This document shows, one piece after another, positions 1,693-30,944 of a stretch of DNA of 41,062 nucleotides. The stretch comes from a virus: positions 1 to 41,062 of IMG/VR virus record IMGVR_UViG_3300049217_000051, one strand, 5' to 3'. The translations under genes and the position numbers were made by a program. A model generated the notes under the pieces. The model had not been told where the DNA came from and did no database searches. It saw nothing but the letters and a program-made list of their open reading frames with translations. Within the stretch, counting starts at the first letter, position 1; the number at the start of each line of letters is the position of its first letter.

Positions 1693-2016
1693 ATGACCGA
1701 CTATATGCCTTTTATGCTGTTGGGAATTAGCTCTGCTATTGGCTTGGTAGCTTGGGCGGTCAATCGCGTCTTGAGCGATGTGGCGCAAATCAAAGCGACC
1801 TTGAATGCCCATATCATCGAAGAGACAAGAGACATAACCGAACTGAATAACCAACGACTAAAGTCGTTGGGTTCTGAGGTTTCAAAAGTCTTGCTTCAGA
1901 CATTGAATTGCCTCATAGGCGCTTCAGTAGCACCATTTCCAAACAACTCTGTCTGTTTGGAAGTGATCAAGGCAGATGACTTTGCGATATTAAATGCCGC
2001 ATTAACATCTGCATGA
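1693..2016 (+). CDS. Small membrane-anchored coiled protein, 3' end replaced by an IS end
   Basis: The N-terminus has one clear membrane segment (about residues 5-24) followed by a helical, charged segment with heptad-like spacing. This layout is common for small proteins next to phage lysis or fibre genes. From position 1843 onward the reading frame runs into the IS200/IS605 element, through its terminal hairpin and antisense to tnpB, so residues 51-107 are not original sequence. If the element (1843-3432) is removed, the frame continues for 31 more codons to a TAG at 3526-3528, giving an 81-residue protein. That second half would lie antisense to a methyltransferase remnant, so it may be fortuitous. 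Function unknown; a holin- or spanin-like role is only a guess. Confidence 0.55.
   Translation: MTDYMPFMLLGISSAIGLVAWAVNRVLSDVAQIKATLNAHIIEETRDITELNNQRLKSLGSEVSKVLLQTLNCLIGASVAPFPNNSVCLEVIKADDFAILNAALTSA
1823..1990 (-). ncRNA. Predicted TnpB omega RNA (reRNA) of element 1
   Basis: In this family the guide RNA of TnpB covers the 3' end of tnpB and the right end of the element, and its guide is the DNA just beyond the right end. Here that is the minus-strand 3' part of tnpB, the hairpin at 1851-1870 and about 20 nt of flank (1842 down to 1823). The 5' boundary is arbitrary; only the position of the hairpin and of the flank is read from the sequence. Confidence 0.4.
1851..1870 (-). repeat. Right-end hairpin of element 1
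   Basis: Perfect 9-bp inverted repeat with a 2-nt centre. Read on the minus strand it is CCAACGACTTTAGTCGTTGG, identical over all 20 nt to the right-end hairpin of element 2 at 30957-30976. It is the expected TnpA recognition hairpin and also the 3' stem of the predicted TnpB guide RNA. Confidence 0.85.
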
Positions 2017-2909
2017 TCGCTGTGTTTGCAATGACAACAGCTAAACCTCTTACCATTTCGTTTTCCAAGTTCGCCACATCTACTACAGTTTTGACTGGTG
2101 TATGCTGGACGAATATGCAATACTGGAATACCTGCAAGTAGAGCTTTGTAAGCGATCATTGCGCCTAATTGATAATAGCTCCAAGAGTTCAGAATATAAC
2201 GGAATGATTTACTATTCTTTTTACTATTGCGAATACCTGTTAGTTGCTCTAACTTAATACCACAATTATTATCTTTAGCAAACTGAACAATCTGCTTGCT
2301 AATCTTATGATTAATATATTTAACCTTTCTTGTTTCTTTACCTTTTGTTTGTTTCAGTTTCTTGAATAATTTTTTACGCTGCAAACCACTACGCAATGCC
2401 TTATATTTTTTATGGATATGAGGTGCTTGCTTGCCTAACTTTATAACTTTGCCATTAGGCGCAGAGGCTGCCGCACAATGAGATGTGGCATTCAGATCAA
2501 CTCCAATAAACTTTTCCAATTGTTGCATAGGCTGATCTTGTTGCTCGAATGCGATATAAGCATAAGTAGCATCTAATTCAATCTGCTTGACCTTTATGAT
2601 CTGATATTTACTCTCATTGTTTAGCGTTAATTTTAGAGGAACTACTCTGATTTTAGATCTTTCTACCTTGATCGACTGTGCCGGTGCTACTAACTTGATC
2701 TTATTTGGATTGATGCGCTTGCACTTCTTGTTCTTGCCATACTTGCGGAGTATTTGATTGCTAATTGCTGAAGGCAGACCAATATCAGAGACATTAGCTG
2801 TTGATAGTTTCATGCGATTTTTGATCGCATAGTTAGCTACCAACACCGCCTTCCGCAAATGTTCTGTTAGATCGGCATTATGTTTGATTTTGATAACTAA
2901 TATACTCAT
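1896..2909 (-). CDS. tnpB: TnpB RNA-guided nuclease (element 1)
   Basis: This 337-residue protein carries the split RuvC nuclease signature of TnpB: Asp138 in IGVDLN, Glu221 in KLEQLTG and Asp301 in HADVNAA. A zinc finger (Cys275, Cys278, Cys291 or 292, Cys294) lies between the last two blocks. The N-terminal 130 residues are Lys-rich and would form the wedge and recognition region. TnpB proteins cut DNA next to a target-adjacent motif using an RNA made from the element's right end, which helps the element persist at its donor site. The ATG overlaps the tnpA stop (ATGA at 2909-2906), so translation is coupled. All catalytic residues are present, so it is probably functional. Confidence 0.92.
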   Translation of the reverse strand: MSILVIKIKHNADLTEHLRKAVLVANYAIKNRMKLSTANVSDIGLPSAISNQILRKYGKNKKCKRINPNKIKLVAPAQSIKVERSKIRVVPLKLTLNNESKYQIIKVKQIELDATYAYIAFEQQDQPMQQLEKFIGVDLNATSHCAAASAPNGKVIKLGKQAPHIHKKYKALRSGLQRKKLFKKLKQTKGKETRKVKYINHKISKQIVQFAKDNNCGIKLEQLTGIRNSKKNSKSFRYILNSWSYYQLGAMIAYKALLAGIPVLHIRPAYTSQNCSRCGELGKRNGKRFSCCHCKHSDHADVNAAFNIAKSSALITSKQTELFGNGATEAPMRQFNV

Positions 2910-3304
2910 CGTGCCTTCTGTTCCAAGATATATTTTTCAACTGTGGCAGCAGAGATATGTCCCACGCTTTCGCAATAATAACTTCTTGTCCAAAGAGTTG
3001 GCAATCGAGTTTTCAATGATGGAAACTCTTCTCTCAATATATGAGAAGATTTGCCTTTAAGCTGTTGAACCACATAATGTGGAGAATGCACTGGAGAGCA
3101 TTTAATGAAGATATGCACATGGTCTGGCATAATTTCCATTGTTTCTATAACACAATCAATTGAAGAGCTAATCTCAATAAGAAGTTCTTTTAGCCTAACT
3201 TCAATCTGATCTACTAAGACTTTACGACGATACTTTGGACACCAAATGATATGGTATCCAATGTTGTAGATTGCCTTATTGCTATGTGTCCATCGTGCGC
3301 TCAT
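2906..3304 (-). CDS. tnpA: IS200-type Y1 HUH transposase TnpA (element 1)
   Basis: The 132-residue length is typical for the family. The HUH metal-binding motif is in PDHVHIF (His62, His64), and the single catalytic tyrosine is Tyr125 in VEKYILEQK near the C-terminus. The N-terminal YHIIWCPKYRR block is also characteristic. TnpA acts as a dimer on single-stranded DNA, cutting at the left and right ends and joining them as a circle for reinsertion 3' of a short target motif. It is followed directly by tnpB with a 4-nt overlap. It appears complete and could also move element 2, which lacks its own tnpA. Confidence 0.95.
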   Translation of the reverse strand: MSARWTHSNKAIYNIGYHIIWCPKYRRKVLVDQIEVRLKELLIEISSSIDCVIETMEIMPDHVHIFIKCSPVHSPHYVVQQLKGKSSHILREEFPSLKTRLPTLWTRSYYCESVGHISAATVEKYILEQKAR

Positions 3305-5715: not shown

Positions 5716-6146
5716 TTCACCCTCCATTCCGTAATTTCTTCCTGTGATAAATGTTCCTCGTCCCAGGCAACATTATCCACAATGCCTTCTTGCATCTTTT
5801 TTATTTTAGAATAAGCTACCTTACACGATTGATCAGTATTGTTATACCAATTTAGATAATTCCAATGCATCATTGCAAAATCTTCCCACAACTCTTCAAC
5901 CCTATCTTGTTTGATAAGTGCCGTGGAATCTTGTTCAGGACCCCTATTAGTGTCTCTTCTCAACTTGGCATTGACAGCTTCGGCTGCTTCTCCGATTTTT
6001 ACTCCATATTTTTTAGAGTATTCATTGAGACAGTAAAGCCATCTTGATTTTTCTTGGAAGATAGAACTAAACTTTCTATCCGCCAATTCAATCAAAACCT
6101 CACCCGCCAATTCTAGCAGGACTATATTTTTGGGTACGGAAATCAT
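5712..6146 (-). CDS. Hypothetical 144-residue helical protein
   Basis: The start overlaps the stop of the VirE-like gene (ATGA at 6146-6143), and its own stop overlaps the next start in the same way. It is therefore a genuine operon member. The product is mostly helical by composition, with many Trp, Tyr and Asn in the second half (including WNYLNWYNN). There are no Cys clusters, signal peptide or membrane segment. I do not recognise a family. Its coupling to the P-loop ATPase gene suggests a helper role in phage DNA metabolism, as inference only. Confidence 0.55.
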   Translation of the reverse strand: MISVPKNIVLLELAGEVLIELADRKFSSIFQEKSRWLYCLNEYSKKYGVKIGEAAEAVNAKLRRDTNRGPEQDSTALIKQDRVEELWEDFAMMHWNYLNWYNNTDQSCKVAYSKIKKMQEGIVDNVAWDEEHLSQEEITEWRVK

Positions 6147-7804
6147 ACTGCCTCCATAATCTTCTTATACTCATCAGTTTGCTGAAATGCCTCAAATGCT
6201 TTGGCAAGTTTTGTTTGCTGAACAGTATCTTCTTGAAAATCATTGGCTACTGACCACCCATTATCTTCTACTTTCATATCTTTCGACAAAGTAGCGTGCG
6301 AGGCATCAGAGAGTGCAAATTGAGGTGTTAGATAGACCCACCTACCAGTTATGATACTCTCCTGTCCGCCAATCACAATCTTGATATTCTTCTTTGATTT
6401 GATGAACTTTAGATCATCACACATAATATGTCTAATTTGTTGGGCAGTAGCATATTTGTTCCACTTCTTACACATATCTGTAATTTCATCGACAGTATAG
6501 TAAGGGTCGATAATTTTGAGACCAGTAAAATAATTAATGAGCTGTTCTCGTAGGATGGAAGCATGAACGAATTGATGACTATATTCTCTCAACTCTTCCA
6601 CATCCTCATCTTTCAGAACATAAGGTTCTTTATCTCCCACTTGCATTTGTGCATCTAATTTTTTCATCTCCTGAAAAGCCTCATACCATAATTGTTTTTT
6701 GATTTTCAGAAAAGTTTTGTAGTCAAACTTTTTAACTTTTACCACCTGAAGCCTTCTAATGACAGATAGTTCGGTGGAGTTGAGTGGCGTCCCATTGTTG
6801 GTAGTCATCAAGAAAACATATGGTCTCTTAACGATCTTATTGAAGTTCTGAAACTTTTCTACATACTTATCGAAAGAGGTGGTGATGAACCTCTTATTGG
6901 TTTCCTGACTATGCTTGTCTTGATTTTCTCCTTCCGAGAAATCTACGAACCAACTACCAATCAATTCTTGAGCTGATGAACGCGTATTATCCATGTCAGG
7001 ACAACCTTCGTATGAGTATGATGGATCAGGACCTAATGACATAATACATTGAGTTTTACCCTCTGCCCCATCCTCTGCCATAAGACATAGCACACATTCA
7101 TTGTATCTACCAGGCGAAGTGCCACGACCTACTGCTTGCAGTATCCACCTTCTGCCTATCTTTTTGATAACGGGCAAATCATCGGCCCCAAAACATAACT
7201 GCATCCAATTATTCATCACATCTAAATTCTCTAACGCAGGATCATTAGTTAGGCTATCTAACCATTCAGTAATCGGATTGAACTCATTTATATTTGAGTT
7301 ATTAGCAATAGCTTCATTGATCTCTTGCATAGAAATTTTGGCATGGAAAAGTTTCTCTACCCCAGAGCGTATCTCAATAGCTTGACGGGGCTCTATTCGA
7401 GTAGTATGATCTTTTAGGAATGGGGCCTGATGGACTATACTTTGGCTAATGCCTGGGCTGACAATATCTACACCAATAGCAATATCGGTATTGGTTCCCC
7501 TGATATTTATCGTCCATTCCATTTTGTCGGAGATGGGGTTCTTGACGAACTTAGGAACATAATCTAAGTCCGCATTATAGAATCCATACTTTTTATTGGC
7601 CAGGTCTTTCTTCTGTTCTTCAGTAATAGCTTCCACAACTTTACTCCTTATTTTCTTTTTTTCAGCTTTGACTTTCTTCTCATAATGAGCAAAATCATTA
7701 GGCTCCAACTCGCCTAATTTGATGAGGTCTTTCAAGATGGCGACACAATCTTCTGCCGATAGGTTATCGTCGGTTAGCGAGTCTGTAAATTGTTTCAGCG
7801 GCAT
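6143..7804 (-). CDS. VirE-family P-loop ATPase, putative replication primase/helicase
   Basis: First gene of the minus-strand operon, with GGAG upstream of the ATG. The 553-residue protein has a P-loop-like motif EDGAEGKTQ at about 244-252 and, downstream, SAQELIGSWFVDFSEGE with the acidic Walker B region. The block RPYVFLMTTNNGTPLNSTE then RRLQVVKV matches the sensor and Arg-finger part of VirE/PF05272-type ATPases. These proteins replace a DnaB- or SF3-like helicase in many phages and plasmids, often next to a primase. Here the first Gly of the Walker A is Glu-Asp-Gly rather than a canonical GxxGxGK, so activity is likely but not assured. The N-terminal 150 residues are Lys-rich and unassigned. 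Confidence 0.75.
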   Translation of the reverse strand: MPLKQFTDSLTDDNLSAEDCVAILKDLIKLGELEPNDFAHYEKKVKAEKKKIRSKVVEAITEEQKKDLANKKYGFYNADLDYVPKFVKNPISDKMEWTINIRGTNTDIAIGVDIVSPGISQSIVHQAPFLKDHTTRIEPRQAIEIRSGVEKLFHAKISMQEINEAIANNSNINEFNPITEWLDSLTNDPALENLDVMNNWMQLCFGADDLPVIKKIGRRWILQAVGRGTSPGRYNECVLCLMAEDGAEGKTQCIMSLGPDPSYSYEGCPDMDNTRSSAQELIGSWFVDFSEGENQDKHSQETNKRFITTSFDKYVEKFQNFNKIVKRPYVFLMTTNNGTPLNSTELSVIRRLQVVKVKKFDYKTFLKIKKQLWYEAFQEMKKLDAQMQVGDKEPYVLKDEDVEELREYSHQFVHASILREQLINYFTGLKIIDPYYTVDEITDMCKKWNKYATAQQIRHIMCDDLKFIKSKKNIKIVIGGQESIITGRWVYLTPQFALSDASHATLSKDMKVEDNGWSVANDFQEDTVQQTKLAKAFEAFQQTDEYKKIMEAV

Positions 7805-12310: not shown

Positions 12311-14791
12311 ATGACTAATTCACAGAAAATAGATACATTTAGCGAATTGTTTCGCCAATTATCTACTGAACAGAAAACTGATTATCTCAAATCACTCTCC
12401 GAAGCAGAGAAGATACAACTATATAAAAATCCTGACAACTTTCTCTTTGACAAACAGATTATTGGTGACGGTAAGTGGGTCTATTATCTTTTACGATGTG
12501 GCAGAGGCTTCGGTAAAGATATCGATATTACTACGCCAGTTCCAACACCAAATGGATGGAAGACAATGGCCGATCTACAAGTTGGAGATCAAGTATTTGG
12601 TGAAGATGGCAAGCCAACCACCATTACATGGGTATCGCCAATTTTTCATAATCCATGCTACCAACTAACATTTAGTACAGGCGAAACGGTTATTGCTGGG
12701 CAAGACCACCAATGGCTAACGCATACACACGCCAATAGAAAATCTGCTGGCAGATCAATAAATCCATCGCAGCCAACTGTCAAAACTACCAAAGAGTTAT
12801 TTGAGACACAGAGATATTTGGAACACGAAAGCAATCATAGTATTATCGTCTCCAAATCACTACAATATTCTACAAAACAACTTCCAATAGACCCGTATGT
12901 ATTAGGTTGTTGGTTGGGAGATGGACAATCTAATACTGGGGCAATCGAGTGTGCAGATCAACAGATACTTGATGAGATAGGTAAAGTTTATTCAGTAAAT
13001 CTTACAATTAGTTCAGTTGGCAAATCTAAATCAAGTAGATATAGAATAGGTAATTTATTAGATCAAATGCTAAATGGGACGCCACATAAAATTGGAGAAC
13101 TAACAAAATTATTACAAGAAAACAATCTGATAAACAATAAGCATATTCCAGCCATTTATCTACATTCTAATATAGAACAAAGAATGTCATTATTGCAAGG
13201 TCTAATGGACACTGACGGAAGTTGTGATAAGAGAGGCGTTTTAGAGTTCCGTAATACCAACAAGTTATTGACAGAACAAACATATGAGCTGATTTTATCG
13301 CTTGGTATCAAAGCAACTATGCATCAGAATGAAAGCTGGTTATACGATAAGCGATGTGCTGATAGATACCGCATTTATTCACAAACGGATAAGCCAGTAT
13401 TCCGATTGGATAGAAAGCGTTCTAATCAAAGAACACCGCAAAATGATTGTTGCAGATACATCACCAAAATAGAGCGGGTGCCAACAGTTCCAACCAAGTG
13501 TATTAGTGTTGATAATGCCAGTCATTTATATCTAATCACCAAAAGCTGCATTCCAACACACAATTCTCACGCTGGAGCTGCTTGGGTAGCCAAGAAGATT
13601 CGTCAGGGTGCTAAGAAGATTGGATTGTGCGGGCCGACCTATTCTGACGTCTCTGATACGATGGTGCCAATGATTCTTTCTTGGTTTTTGCCAGAAGAAT
13701 TTGCCGATCCATCTCATCCATATACTGACTACAAAATCAAGTTCAAGAATGGTGCTCAAATTCATTGCTACTCTTCCGAGGTAGAAAAGAAAGGCCCTAA
13801 CTTGGAGTATCTGTGGTGCGATGAGATTGCTACTTGGTGTCAAGGTCAGCCAGATAAAATCAAAGAGCGCTTTGATGACATTACCAGGGCTGTACGTAAG
13901 GGCAAGCATCCGCAAACCATTATTACCTCTACTCCCAAGAACCATCCCTTCTTCACTTGGTTTCAGAAGAACATCGATGGCTACAATCAGAACTTCAAAT
14001 TAGTGCAAGGTAGTATGTTGGAGAATCCAACTCTCTCGCAAGCTTACAAGGACAACCAGATTGCTTTGTATGCTCACAACTCCAAGGGCCGTCAAGAGCT
14101 GTTTGGTGATTTGATTACTGATACAGAAGGCGCTTTCTGGAACCACAAAGAGATTGATGATTTGCGAGCGCCATTACCCAGCCCGCTTATAATCACCGCT
14201 CGTAAATCGGCGGTGCCGACCAATGCTCAACTGATGGGCTTGGAACCAATGCCAACTCCCATTGATAAAAGCATCCCGCATTTAACACGAATGGGAATTG
14301 GATTTGATCCCTCTGGCTCGGTAGATGGTGATGAGTGTGGTATCTTGGCAGTAGCTCTCTATTCTAATCAACACGCCTATGTAATTGAAGATGCTTCTGG
14401 CTCTTACAACCCGAATGACTACGCAATCAAATTGGATCAATTATATCGCAAATATCCTTGTTCATTTGTAATGGTAGAATCCAACTTTGGTGGCAAAGAA
14501 TCTTTCTTGTATATCCTTCGCAGCGTCAATGCTACAATGAATGTTAAAACTATCCACTCTAAAACGGGGAAAGCTACCCGAGCTGAACACATCTCTGGTC
14601 TATATGCACAAGGCCGTGTGCATCACGTAGGTAGTTTCAAGTATCTGGAAGACCAAATGACTACTTTCAATGTGCATTACTCTAAATCACCAGATCGATT
14701 GGATGCATTGGGATTTGTTTTGACTGAACTTTTCTGGCCGCAAAATGCGGCCCCACTTATCACAGCTCGTAATCTACCAGCACAATATTAA
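12311..14791 (+). CDS. Terminase large subunit with in-frame intein
   Basis: The packaging ATPase-nuclease is split by a 349-residue intein within the Walker A motif: GRGFGK (residues 64-69) is followed after splicing by SHAGAAW (from Ser419). Walker B with catalytic Glu is LEYLWCDEIA (Asp504, Glu505). The C-terminal nuclease has acidic residues at Asp666 in GIGFDPSGS, Glu723 in MVESNFGG and Asp795/Asp798 in SPDRLDALG. Without the intein the protein is about 477 residues, a usual TerL size. It pumps DNA into the prohead through the portal and cuts it. It can only work if the intein splices, because the P-loop is broken otherwise. Confidence 0.9.
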   Translation: MTNSQKIDTFSELFRQLSTEQKTDYLKSLSEAEKIQLYKNPDNFLFDKQIIGDGKWVYYLLRCGRGFGKDIDITTPVPTPNGWKTMADLQVGDQVFGEDGKPTTITWVSPIFHNPCYQLTFSTGETVIAGQDHQWLTHTHANRKSAGRSINPSQPTVKTTKELFETQRYLEHESNHSIIVSKSLQYSTKQLPIDPYVLGCWLGDGQSNTGAIECADQQILDEIGKVYSVNLTISSVGKSKSSRYRIGNLLDQMLNGTPHKIGELTKLLQENNLINNKHIPAIYLHSNIEQRMSLLQGLMDTDGSCDKRGVLEFRNTNKLLTEQTYELILSLGIKATMHQNESWLYDKRCADRYRIYSQTDKPVFRLDRKRSNQRTPQNDCCRYITKIERVPTVPTKCISVDNASHLYLITKSCIPTHNSHAGAAWVAKKIRQGAKKIGLCGPTYSDVSDTMVPMILSWFLPEEFADPSHPYTDYKIKFKNGAQIHCYSSEVEKKGPNLEYLWCDEIATWCQGQPDKIKERFDDITRAVRKGKHPQTIITSTPKNHPFFTWFQKNIDGYNQNFKLVQGSMLENPTLSQAYKDNQIALYAHNSKGRQELFGDLITDTEGAFWNHKEIDDLRAPLPSPLIITARKSAVPTNAQLMGLEPMPTPIDKSIPHLTRMGIGFDPSGSVDGDECGILAVALYSNQHAYVIEDASGSYNPNDYAIKLDQLYRKYPCSFVMVESNFGGKESFLYILRSVNATMNVKTIHSKTGKATRAEHISGLYAQGRVHHVGSFKYLEDQMTTFNVHYSKSPDRLDALGFVLTELFWPQNAAPLITARNLPAQY
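12518..13564 (+). other. Intein with LAGLIDADG endonuclease, class 3 features
   Basis: The element spans Asp70 to Asn418 of the fused protein. Block A is ITTPVPTPNGWKTMADLQVGD, which lacks the usual Cys1/Ser1; the first residue appears to be Asp. Block B has His133 and Trp135 (GQDHQWL). Block F carries Cys397 in place of the usual Asp (KCISVDN). Block G ends in Thr416-His417-Asn418 before Ser419. Trp in block B, Cys in block F and Thr in block G form the W-C-T set reported for class 3 inteins. Two LAGLIDADG helices (LGCWLGDG at about 198-205 and LQGLMDTDG at about 295-303) mark a homing endonuclease. The DNA is more AT-rich than the exteins, suggesting later arrival. Confidence 0.85.
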
Positions 14792-29873: not shown

Positions 29874-30944
29874 ATGCTTCTAACAACCTCCATAAAACTG
29901 CTTGCCACTACGGATCAGAAGAAAAGTCTTCTGAAGTCTATGTATCAGTTCAACTCTGCTTGCAACTGGATTAGTGAGTATGCTTTTGCTAACTCTATGT
30001 TTAGCAAAGTTAAGCTGCAAAAAGCTATCTATTATGAGCTAAGAGAAAAGTTTAATCTGCCAGCTCAGTTTGCTATAAGGGCTTTATCTCGTGTAGCAGA
30101 TTCTTATAAACTCAATAAACAAGTTGAGCATAAGTTTAACAAGACTTCTTCGGTAGAATATGATCAAAGAATACTCAACTGGAAGAAACTTGATACCATC
30201 AGTATTCTTTCTTTAGATGGTAGGCTTCTTATTCCGATTATCTTCGGTCAGTATGCAAAATTAACTGAAAGAGTTATTAGAAACTCTGCTAAATTAATCT
30301 ATAAGAACAAAGAGTTTTATCTGCAAGCAGTAGTAGAGGTGCCAGAGGCACAATTAGTTTCTGCTCAAGATTTTCTTGGAGTTGATCTCGGTATTGTCAA
30401 TCTAGCAACTACATCAGAAGGTCAAGTTTTTTCTGGTCAGCAAGTAGATGCCATTAGAGAAAGATATACAGGATTAAAAGCAAGATTGCAATCATGTGGT
30501 AGTGTCTCAGCTAAAAGACACCTTAAGAAAATATCAGGTCAAGAAGGAAGGTTCAAGAGAAATACTAATCATATGATTAGCAAGAAAATCGTTCAATCAG
30601 CTCAAAGGCACCAGAAAGCAATAGCTCTCGAAGAGTTATCAGGCTTCAGGAAAACTGTTAGAAAAAGTCAGAAAGAACGATTTGGCAAATGGGCATTTGG
30701 TCAATTAGCTTCTTATATTGAATATAAGGCAAAGATTACGGGCATTGAAGTAGTTAAGGTTAATCCGAGAAACACTTCAAGAACCTGTTCTGAATGTGGT
30801 CATTGCGAAAAGTTAAACCGAAAAAGTCAATCGGTTTTCAAATGCAGATCGTGCGGACATTCTATGAATGCCGATCTCAATGCGGCAATTAACATTGCCG
30901 CAAGAGCCTTAGTCAATAGGCTTATTGCAGCCAATCAGAAATGA
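29874..30944 (+). CDS. tnpB: TnpB RNA-guided nuclease (element 2)
   Basis: The 356-residue protein has the RuvC triad of TnpB: Asp171 in LGVDLGIVNLAT, a Glu at 253-254 in IALEELSGFR and Asp334 in MNADLNAAINIA. A zinc finger with Cys305, Cys308, Cys324 and Cys327 is present. The N-terminal part (about 1-160) has the Tyr/Lys-rich helices of the recognition domain. It is clearly different in sequence from TnpB of element 1 despite sharing the right-end hairpin. It should cut DNA at a TCAC-like motif using a guide made from the right flank. All catalytic residues are present, so it is probably active. Confidence 0.9.
   Translation: MLLTTSIKLLATTDQKKSLLKSMYQFNSACNWISEYAFANSMFSKVKLQKAIYYELREKFNLPAQFAIRALSRVADSYKLNKQVEHKFNKTSSVEYDQRILNWKKLDTISILSLDGRLLIPIIFGQYAKLTERVIRNSAKLIYKNKEFYLQAVVEVPEAQLVSAQDFLGVDLGIVNLATTSEGQVFSGQQVDAIRERYTGLKARLQSCGSVSAKRHLKKISGQEGRFKRNTNHMISKKIVQSAQRHQKAIALEELSGFRKTVRKSQKERFGKWAFGQLASYIEYKAKITGIEVVKVNPRNTSRTCSECGHCEKLNRKSQSVFKCRSCGHSMNADLNAAINIAARALVNRLIAANQK

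Follow-up and report, generated by a model that had tools for sequence, protein, structure and literature searches.

The window analysed here, the 41,062-base IMG/VR virus record IMGVR_UViG_3300049217_000051, encodes a phage terminase large subunit (TerL) whose Walker A motif is split by an intein. Sequence and a predicted structure together leave us nearly certain that this insert is a mobile class 3 intein that includes a homing endonuclease, lodged between the Lys and the Ser of the terminase P-loop and predicted to splice by means of Cys328. Its first residue is Asp, which is rare at this place and already has a splicing precedent; less ordinary is the recurring link of residue 1 with the residues at block positions B:7 and F:2.

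The terminase reading frame and the boundaries of the insert

The window carries genes for a portal protein, a tail sheath and a baseplate, and was therefore assigned to a contractile-tailed phage. The terminase is encoded by the ORF at 12311-14791 (+), which specifies 826 aa and reads without an internal stop. Pfam analysis revealed Terminase_6N and Terminase_6C in the flanks of the insert and LAGLIDADG_3/Hom_end within it. In ORF numbering, GRGFGK occupies residues 64-69 and is followed by the 349-aa intein (residues 70-418) and then by SHAGAAW, so that W135, C397 and T416 of the ORF are W66, C328 and T347 of the intein (Table 1).

The boundaries were set by comparison with empty sites. In all 66 intein-free terminases from bacterial and archaeal genomes whose C-extein match begins at the first residue of the C-extein, a GRGxGK-type Walker A is joined straight to Thr or Ser, and the motif was likewise uninterrupted in four phage terminases, GRGxGK running directly into Thr or Ser. 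Therefore, the insert lies between the Lys and the Ser of the P-loop, with Asp as residue 1 and Ser as residue +1. A boundary moved so as to make Ser or Thr residue 1 was rejected, since the empty sites without exception place the junction after GK. The closest intein-free TerLs are only 32-36% identical in the extein, and a search with the C-extein among viral contigs for a close intein-free allele found none. The earlier note had read the Walker A motif as broken into GRGFGK, an intein at 12518-13564 and SHAGAAW, with Asp instead of Cys or Ser at position 1; the open frame and the empty sites bear this out. The terminal His-Asn, the Ser+1 and the two LAGLIDADG motifs that it had listed are likewise present in the sequence, the motifs being matched by Pfam and retaining Asp135 and Asp233.

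Table 1. Features of the intein-bearing terminase gene, in positions of the window
Feature	Positions	Strand	Basis
N-extein of TerL, up to and including the first half of Walker A (GRGFGK, 12500-12517)	12311-12517	+	Alignment to intein-free TerLs as far as GRGxGK
Class 3-type intein, 349 aa, with LAGLIDADG homing endonuclease	12518-13564	+	Sequence, Pfam, phmmer, alignments, AlphaFold2 superposition
Intein residue 1, Asp (GAT), no Cys/Ser/Thr nucleophile	12518-12520	+	Boundary set by 66/66 empty sites
Gly61, block B:7; Gly accompanies Asp1 in 6/7 cases	12698-12700	+	Covariation
His64, block B:10	12707-12709	+	Invariant, 78/78
Trp66, block B:12, W of W-C-T (ORF Trp135)	12713-12715	+	Invariant, 78/78
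First LAGLIDADG motif, YVLGCWLGDG, catalytic Asp135	12896-12925	+	Asp in 76/78; Pfam Hom_end/LAGLIDADG_3
Lys208 (NKHIP), conserved endonuclease lysine	13139-13141	+	Invariant, 78/78
Second LAGLIDADG motif, LLQGLMDTDG, catalytic Asp233	13190-13219	+	Asp invariant, 78/78
Thr326, block F:2; Thr in 7/7 Asp1 inteins	13493-13495	+	Covariation
Cys328 (ORF Cys397), block F:4, predicted to start splicing as nucleophile and to be the first branch point	13499-13501	+	Invariant, 78/78; 284/284 in the wider set
Thr347-His348-Asn349, blocks G:5 to G:7	13556-13564	+	Invariant, 78/78
C-extein: Ser+1, remaining Walker A, ATPase and RNase H-like nuclease of TerL	13565-14788	+	Pfam Terminase_6N/6C; 32-36% identity to intein-free TerLs

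Assignment to class 3

Two things define class 3 inteins: the set of Trp B:12, Cys F:4 and Thr G:5 (W-C-T), and a splicing route beginning at Cys F:4, for which a nucleophile at position 1 is unneeded (PMC5222942, PMC4031507). The other marks of the class are also present, namely the lack of Cys, Ser or Thr at position 1, the His at B:10, the His-Asn end, the Ser+1 and, in the predicted structure, the fold of the solved class 3 inteins. With phmmer, the two solved class 3 DnaB inteins (6rix, 6bs8) matched the insert in separate N and C segments (E 2e-24), in which W, C and THN are in register. Moreover, His B:10, W, C, T and HN were invariant in all 78 distinct inteins of a set comprising the window's intein and 77 from viral contigs, which was retrieved by endonuclease and block A motifs and not by W-C-T, and which, being made of best-scoring homologues, is a sample of close kin. 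In a wider set, Cys was found at F:4 in 284 of 284 inteins. The earlier note had placed Trp135, Cys397 and Thr416 in blocks B, F and G and had proposed an alignment with class 3 inteins as a check; the three residues stand in the class 3 columns in the 10-intein and the 78-intein alignment alike, and Cys397 falls at F:4, not outside block F, both against the solved class 3 inteins and in every one of the 78 relatives.

The AlphaFold2 model of the intein (pLDDT 94.2, pTM 0.92) was superposed on 6bs8 (chain C) with a Z of 20.8 and 1.2 Å over 124 of 125 residues at 41% identity, the first residues of the two coinciding and the final Asn matching the final residue of 6bs8. Taken together, the splicing domains of 6bs8, 6riy and 6rix gave Z values of 20.4-20.8, deviations of 1.2-1.7 Å and identities of 39-41%. 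Compared as a whole with PI-SceI, the model reached a Z of 27.7, which, together with the Pfam matches and the conservation of two motifs with their catalytic Asp, indicates a LAGLIDADG endonuclease of the DOD fold. The class 3 interpretation is thus supported by sequence and by predicted structure, through W-C-T in register, the missing position-1 nucleophile and the fit of the model to solved members of the class.

Proposed splicing and homing

We infer that the intein splices and that its endonuclease is active. Cys328, aided by His64, Trp66 and Thr347, would attack the Lys(-1)-Asp1 peptide bond and form a thioester branch, from which the N-extein would be handed to Ser+1; cyclisation of Asn349 would then release the intein, and an O-to-N shift would ligate GRGFGK to SHAGAAW. 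This would yield a complete Walker A, the predicted junction peptide of the ligated exteins being ...GRGFGKSHAGAAW..., and the ATPase motor would presumably be inactive before splicing. The endonuclease, in turn, is expected to cleave intein-free TerL genes at the junction of the Lys and Ser codons, into which the intein would be copied. The Asp1 side chain probably packs against Gly61 (B:7), close to Thr326 (F:2).

Relatives and known systems

A close known counterpart is the TerL1-b intein in gp6 of Mycobacterium phage Baka (BAKA), of which NihilNomen carries an identical copy. Like the window's intein, it interrupts a terminase P-loop, has Asp1, W-C-T, THN, Ser+1 and a LAGLIDADG endonuclease and measures 349 aa; unlike it, it is inserted one residue later (between GKG and S), in a different terminase family, and falls outside the clade of the window's intein. 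The window's intein and the NihilNomen copy share 118 of 367 aligned positions (32% identity by BLASTP). The BAKA intein starts with DLGHNT after RQNGKG and ends in THN before SILEA, and LittleE, which has no intein at this site, reads RQNGKGSILEA; therefore, Asp is residue 1 of the BAKA intein too. Kelley et al. (PMC5050341) reported ready splicing of this intein and its cleavage of the Courthouse gene, which is intein-free; the Asp1 and W-C-T of the intein were read here from the sequence. Asp1 is therefore no bar to class 3 splicing.

The class 3 DnaB inteins Msm DnaBi1 (6bs8), a P-loop insertion (PMC6195587), and Mch DnaB1 (6rix, 6riy) share W-C-T and the splicing-domain fold over about 125 residues, but differ from the window's intein in being mini-inteins without an endonuclease, housed in a bacterial helicase. 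Insertion in a terminase P-loop is shared with the mycobacteriophage TerL1-a inteins and with the TerL inteins of Vibrio phage 489E54-1, Klebsiella phages fENko-Kae01 and RaK2, and Krischvirus. The Vibrio 489E54-1, fENko-Kae01 and Mosby copies lie, like the window's, between Lys and Thr/Ser and have C(F:4), T(G:5) and an endonuclease, whereas they begin with Ala and are 36-40% identical to it.

The nearest sequences, up to 50% identical, are inteins of IMG/VR contigs (L021-L026, L036, L043 and L058). Eight viral-contig inteins form a well-supported group with the window's (98/96), L024 standing outside; residue 1 of these eight is Gln or Met, where the window's intein has Asp. The hosts in this clade include a MoxR-like ATPase (L022), a helicase-loader-like P-loop ATPase (L021) and GpA terminases interrupted before Walker B (L023, L058), each at a G[KR]-T junction; the first two names are readings of extein sequences that have no Pfam match. 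The occurrence of clade members in different ATPase genes points to transfer of the intein between such genes, a pattern compatible with the proposal that class 3 arose in phages (PMC3196547).

Some relatives have features of their own. Three GpA-type terminases (L025, L036, L043) seemingly carry two nearby inteins, one of class 3 ahead of Walker B and another intein-like insert, beginning with Cys, immediately behind the Walker B DE. Five inteins (L380, L386, L401, L413, L418), about 300 bases from the locus start, have the full W-C-T together with Cys at position 1 and at B:7, that is, mixed class 1/class 3 motifs. In addition, intein-bearing large-terminase homologues of Escherichia phages (H26, H27, H31) are annotated 'replicative DNA helicase', and an intein-bearing ORF of Klebsiella phage N1M2 (L018) is annotated 'DarB-like antirestriction'; similarity to the intein may have caused these annotations.

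Residue 1 and its partners at B:7 and F:2

In the 78-intein set, position 1 is held by Ala in 52 inteins, Gln in 7, Leu in 7, Met in 4, Arg in 3, Asp in 2, Gly in 2 and Pro in 1; it does not vary independently of B:7, Ala1 being paired with Asp at B:7 in 43 of 52 cases, and Gln1 with Cys at B:7. The set was then enlarged to 277 W-C-T inteins through three further scans, of which those of the second round were seeded with acidic-1 inteins. Position 1 again proved varied (A, L, Q, M, P, E, S, D and others), with Asp1 in seven inteins; given these and BAKA TerL1-b, the idea that Asp1 is unique to the window's intein was rejected. Because position 1 varies among relatives, it is very unlikely that Asp1 acts as a nucleophile.

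The seven Asp1 inteins share a particular setting. Gly stands at B:7 in six of them (24/277 overall) and Thr at F:2 in all seven (47/277 overall); Asp1 and Gly B:7 are both minority states. Asp at B:7, present in 113 of the 277, is missing wherever position 1 is Asp or Glu (16 inteins). The four Asp1 inteins that were added after the hypothesis had been formed (L188, L202, L241, L365) all have Gly B:7 and Thr F:2. None of 1000 tree-based simulations reproduced 6/7 for Gly B:7 or 7/7 for Thr F:2, the F:2 link having been discovered and tested on one and the same intein set, and the absence of B:7 Asp from the acidic-1 inteins had a P of 0.003 in such simulations. Furthermore, mutual information over 269 columns ranked F:2, column 43 and B:7 as the three top partners of position 1. 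Descent of the Asp1 inteins as one inherited clade was rejected (p-AU 5e-14), the best tree requiring seven changes. When the pairing of Asp1 with Gly B:7 was put to an independent-pairs sign test, about 4 of only 5 supported pairs went in the same direction, a number of pairs with which 0.05 is unreachable (median p 0.125).

In a class 2 intein, B:7 is a near neighbour of the residue 1 backbone N (PMC4031507), and working class 3 inteins are known that have Gly or Asp in this place (PMC7891396); a contact between residue 1 and B:7 is therefore plausible. A search of accessible papers found no earlier description of the residue 1/B:7/F:2 link. Asp1 itself is most probably passive, a residue that fits Gly61 and Thr326; a bolder reading, which we hold to be somewhat less likely than not, is that residue 1 of class 3 inteins belongs to the active site and is no free position. 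The expectation that Asp1 would be of interest for chemistry was only weakly borne out: splicing with Asp1 has its precedent in BAKA TerL1-b and position 1 varies among the 277, but particular residues at B:7 and F:2 do go together with Asp1.

Alternative explanations

A class 2-like route, in which Ser+1 directly attacks the N-terminal splice bond and Cys328 is merely structural, would suit the lack of a nucleophile at position 1. The class 2 inteins known to a review of the field are, however, all KlbA orthologues with Ala1, Cys+1, Asp F:4 and Ser G:6 (PMC4031507), whereas the window's intein has Cys F:4, Trp B:12, Thr G:5, His G:6, Ser+1 and a TerL host, and fits class 3 structures; on F:4, G:6 and the host protein this mechanism was rejected, and we consider it extremely improbable. 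Hardly more credible is a decayed, non-splicing intein in a terminase that is non-functional or provided elsewhere. The rarity of Asp1 and of Gly B:7 would agree with decay, and class 3 pseudo-inteins are known (Arsp-FB24 Arth_1007, PMC3196547), but that published pseudogene is without the Cys F:4 and His B:10 that the window's intein keeps; moreover, the frame is open, all catalytic positions are intact, both endonuclease Asp and the Lys are retained, and the Asp1-bearing BAKA intein splices.

The remaining proposal refines the class 3 reading instead of replacing it. Asp1 could be catalytic, for example by substituting for the common B:7 Asp as a charge near the N-terminal splice bond, and the exclusion of B:7 Asp from acidic-1 inteins, together with the Gly B:7 and Thr F:2 that accompany Asp1, would accord with such a role. 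Packing or charge repulsion accounts equally for this pattern, however, the conservative independent-pairs test is without significance, and many inteins are free of acid at both places (Leu1/His, Gln1/His, Ala1/Cys or Ser); because of these relatives, a catalytic Asp1 is possible yet unneeded, and we regard it as unlikely.

Other genes in the window

An IS200/IS605-type pair is found at the phage edge, at 1896-2909 (-) and 2906-3304 (-), consisting of TnpA, a Y1 transposase, and a TnpB-like protein whose TNB domain is Cas12f1-like. Another TnpB-like gene, with OrfB_IS605 and a Cas12f1-like TNB domain, lies amid the tail genes at 29874-30944 (+), with no Y1 transposase beside it among the ORFs tested. 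A VapE-like helicase/primase is encoded at 6143-7804 (-), on the strand opposite to the structural genes.

Significance

The window's intein adds to a well-described kind, the class 3 P-loop inteins of phages, which are common in terminases. From the link of residue 1 with B:7 and F:2 it seems that the first residue of class 3 inteins, though 'unused', is tuned to those around it, an idea for which BAKA TerL1-b and the window's intein offer natural test cases. A tuned residue 1 would bear on the engineering of class 3 inteins and on their departure from the class 1 mechanism.
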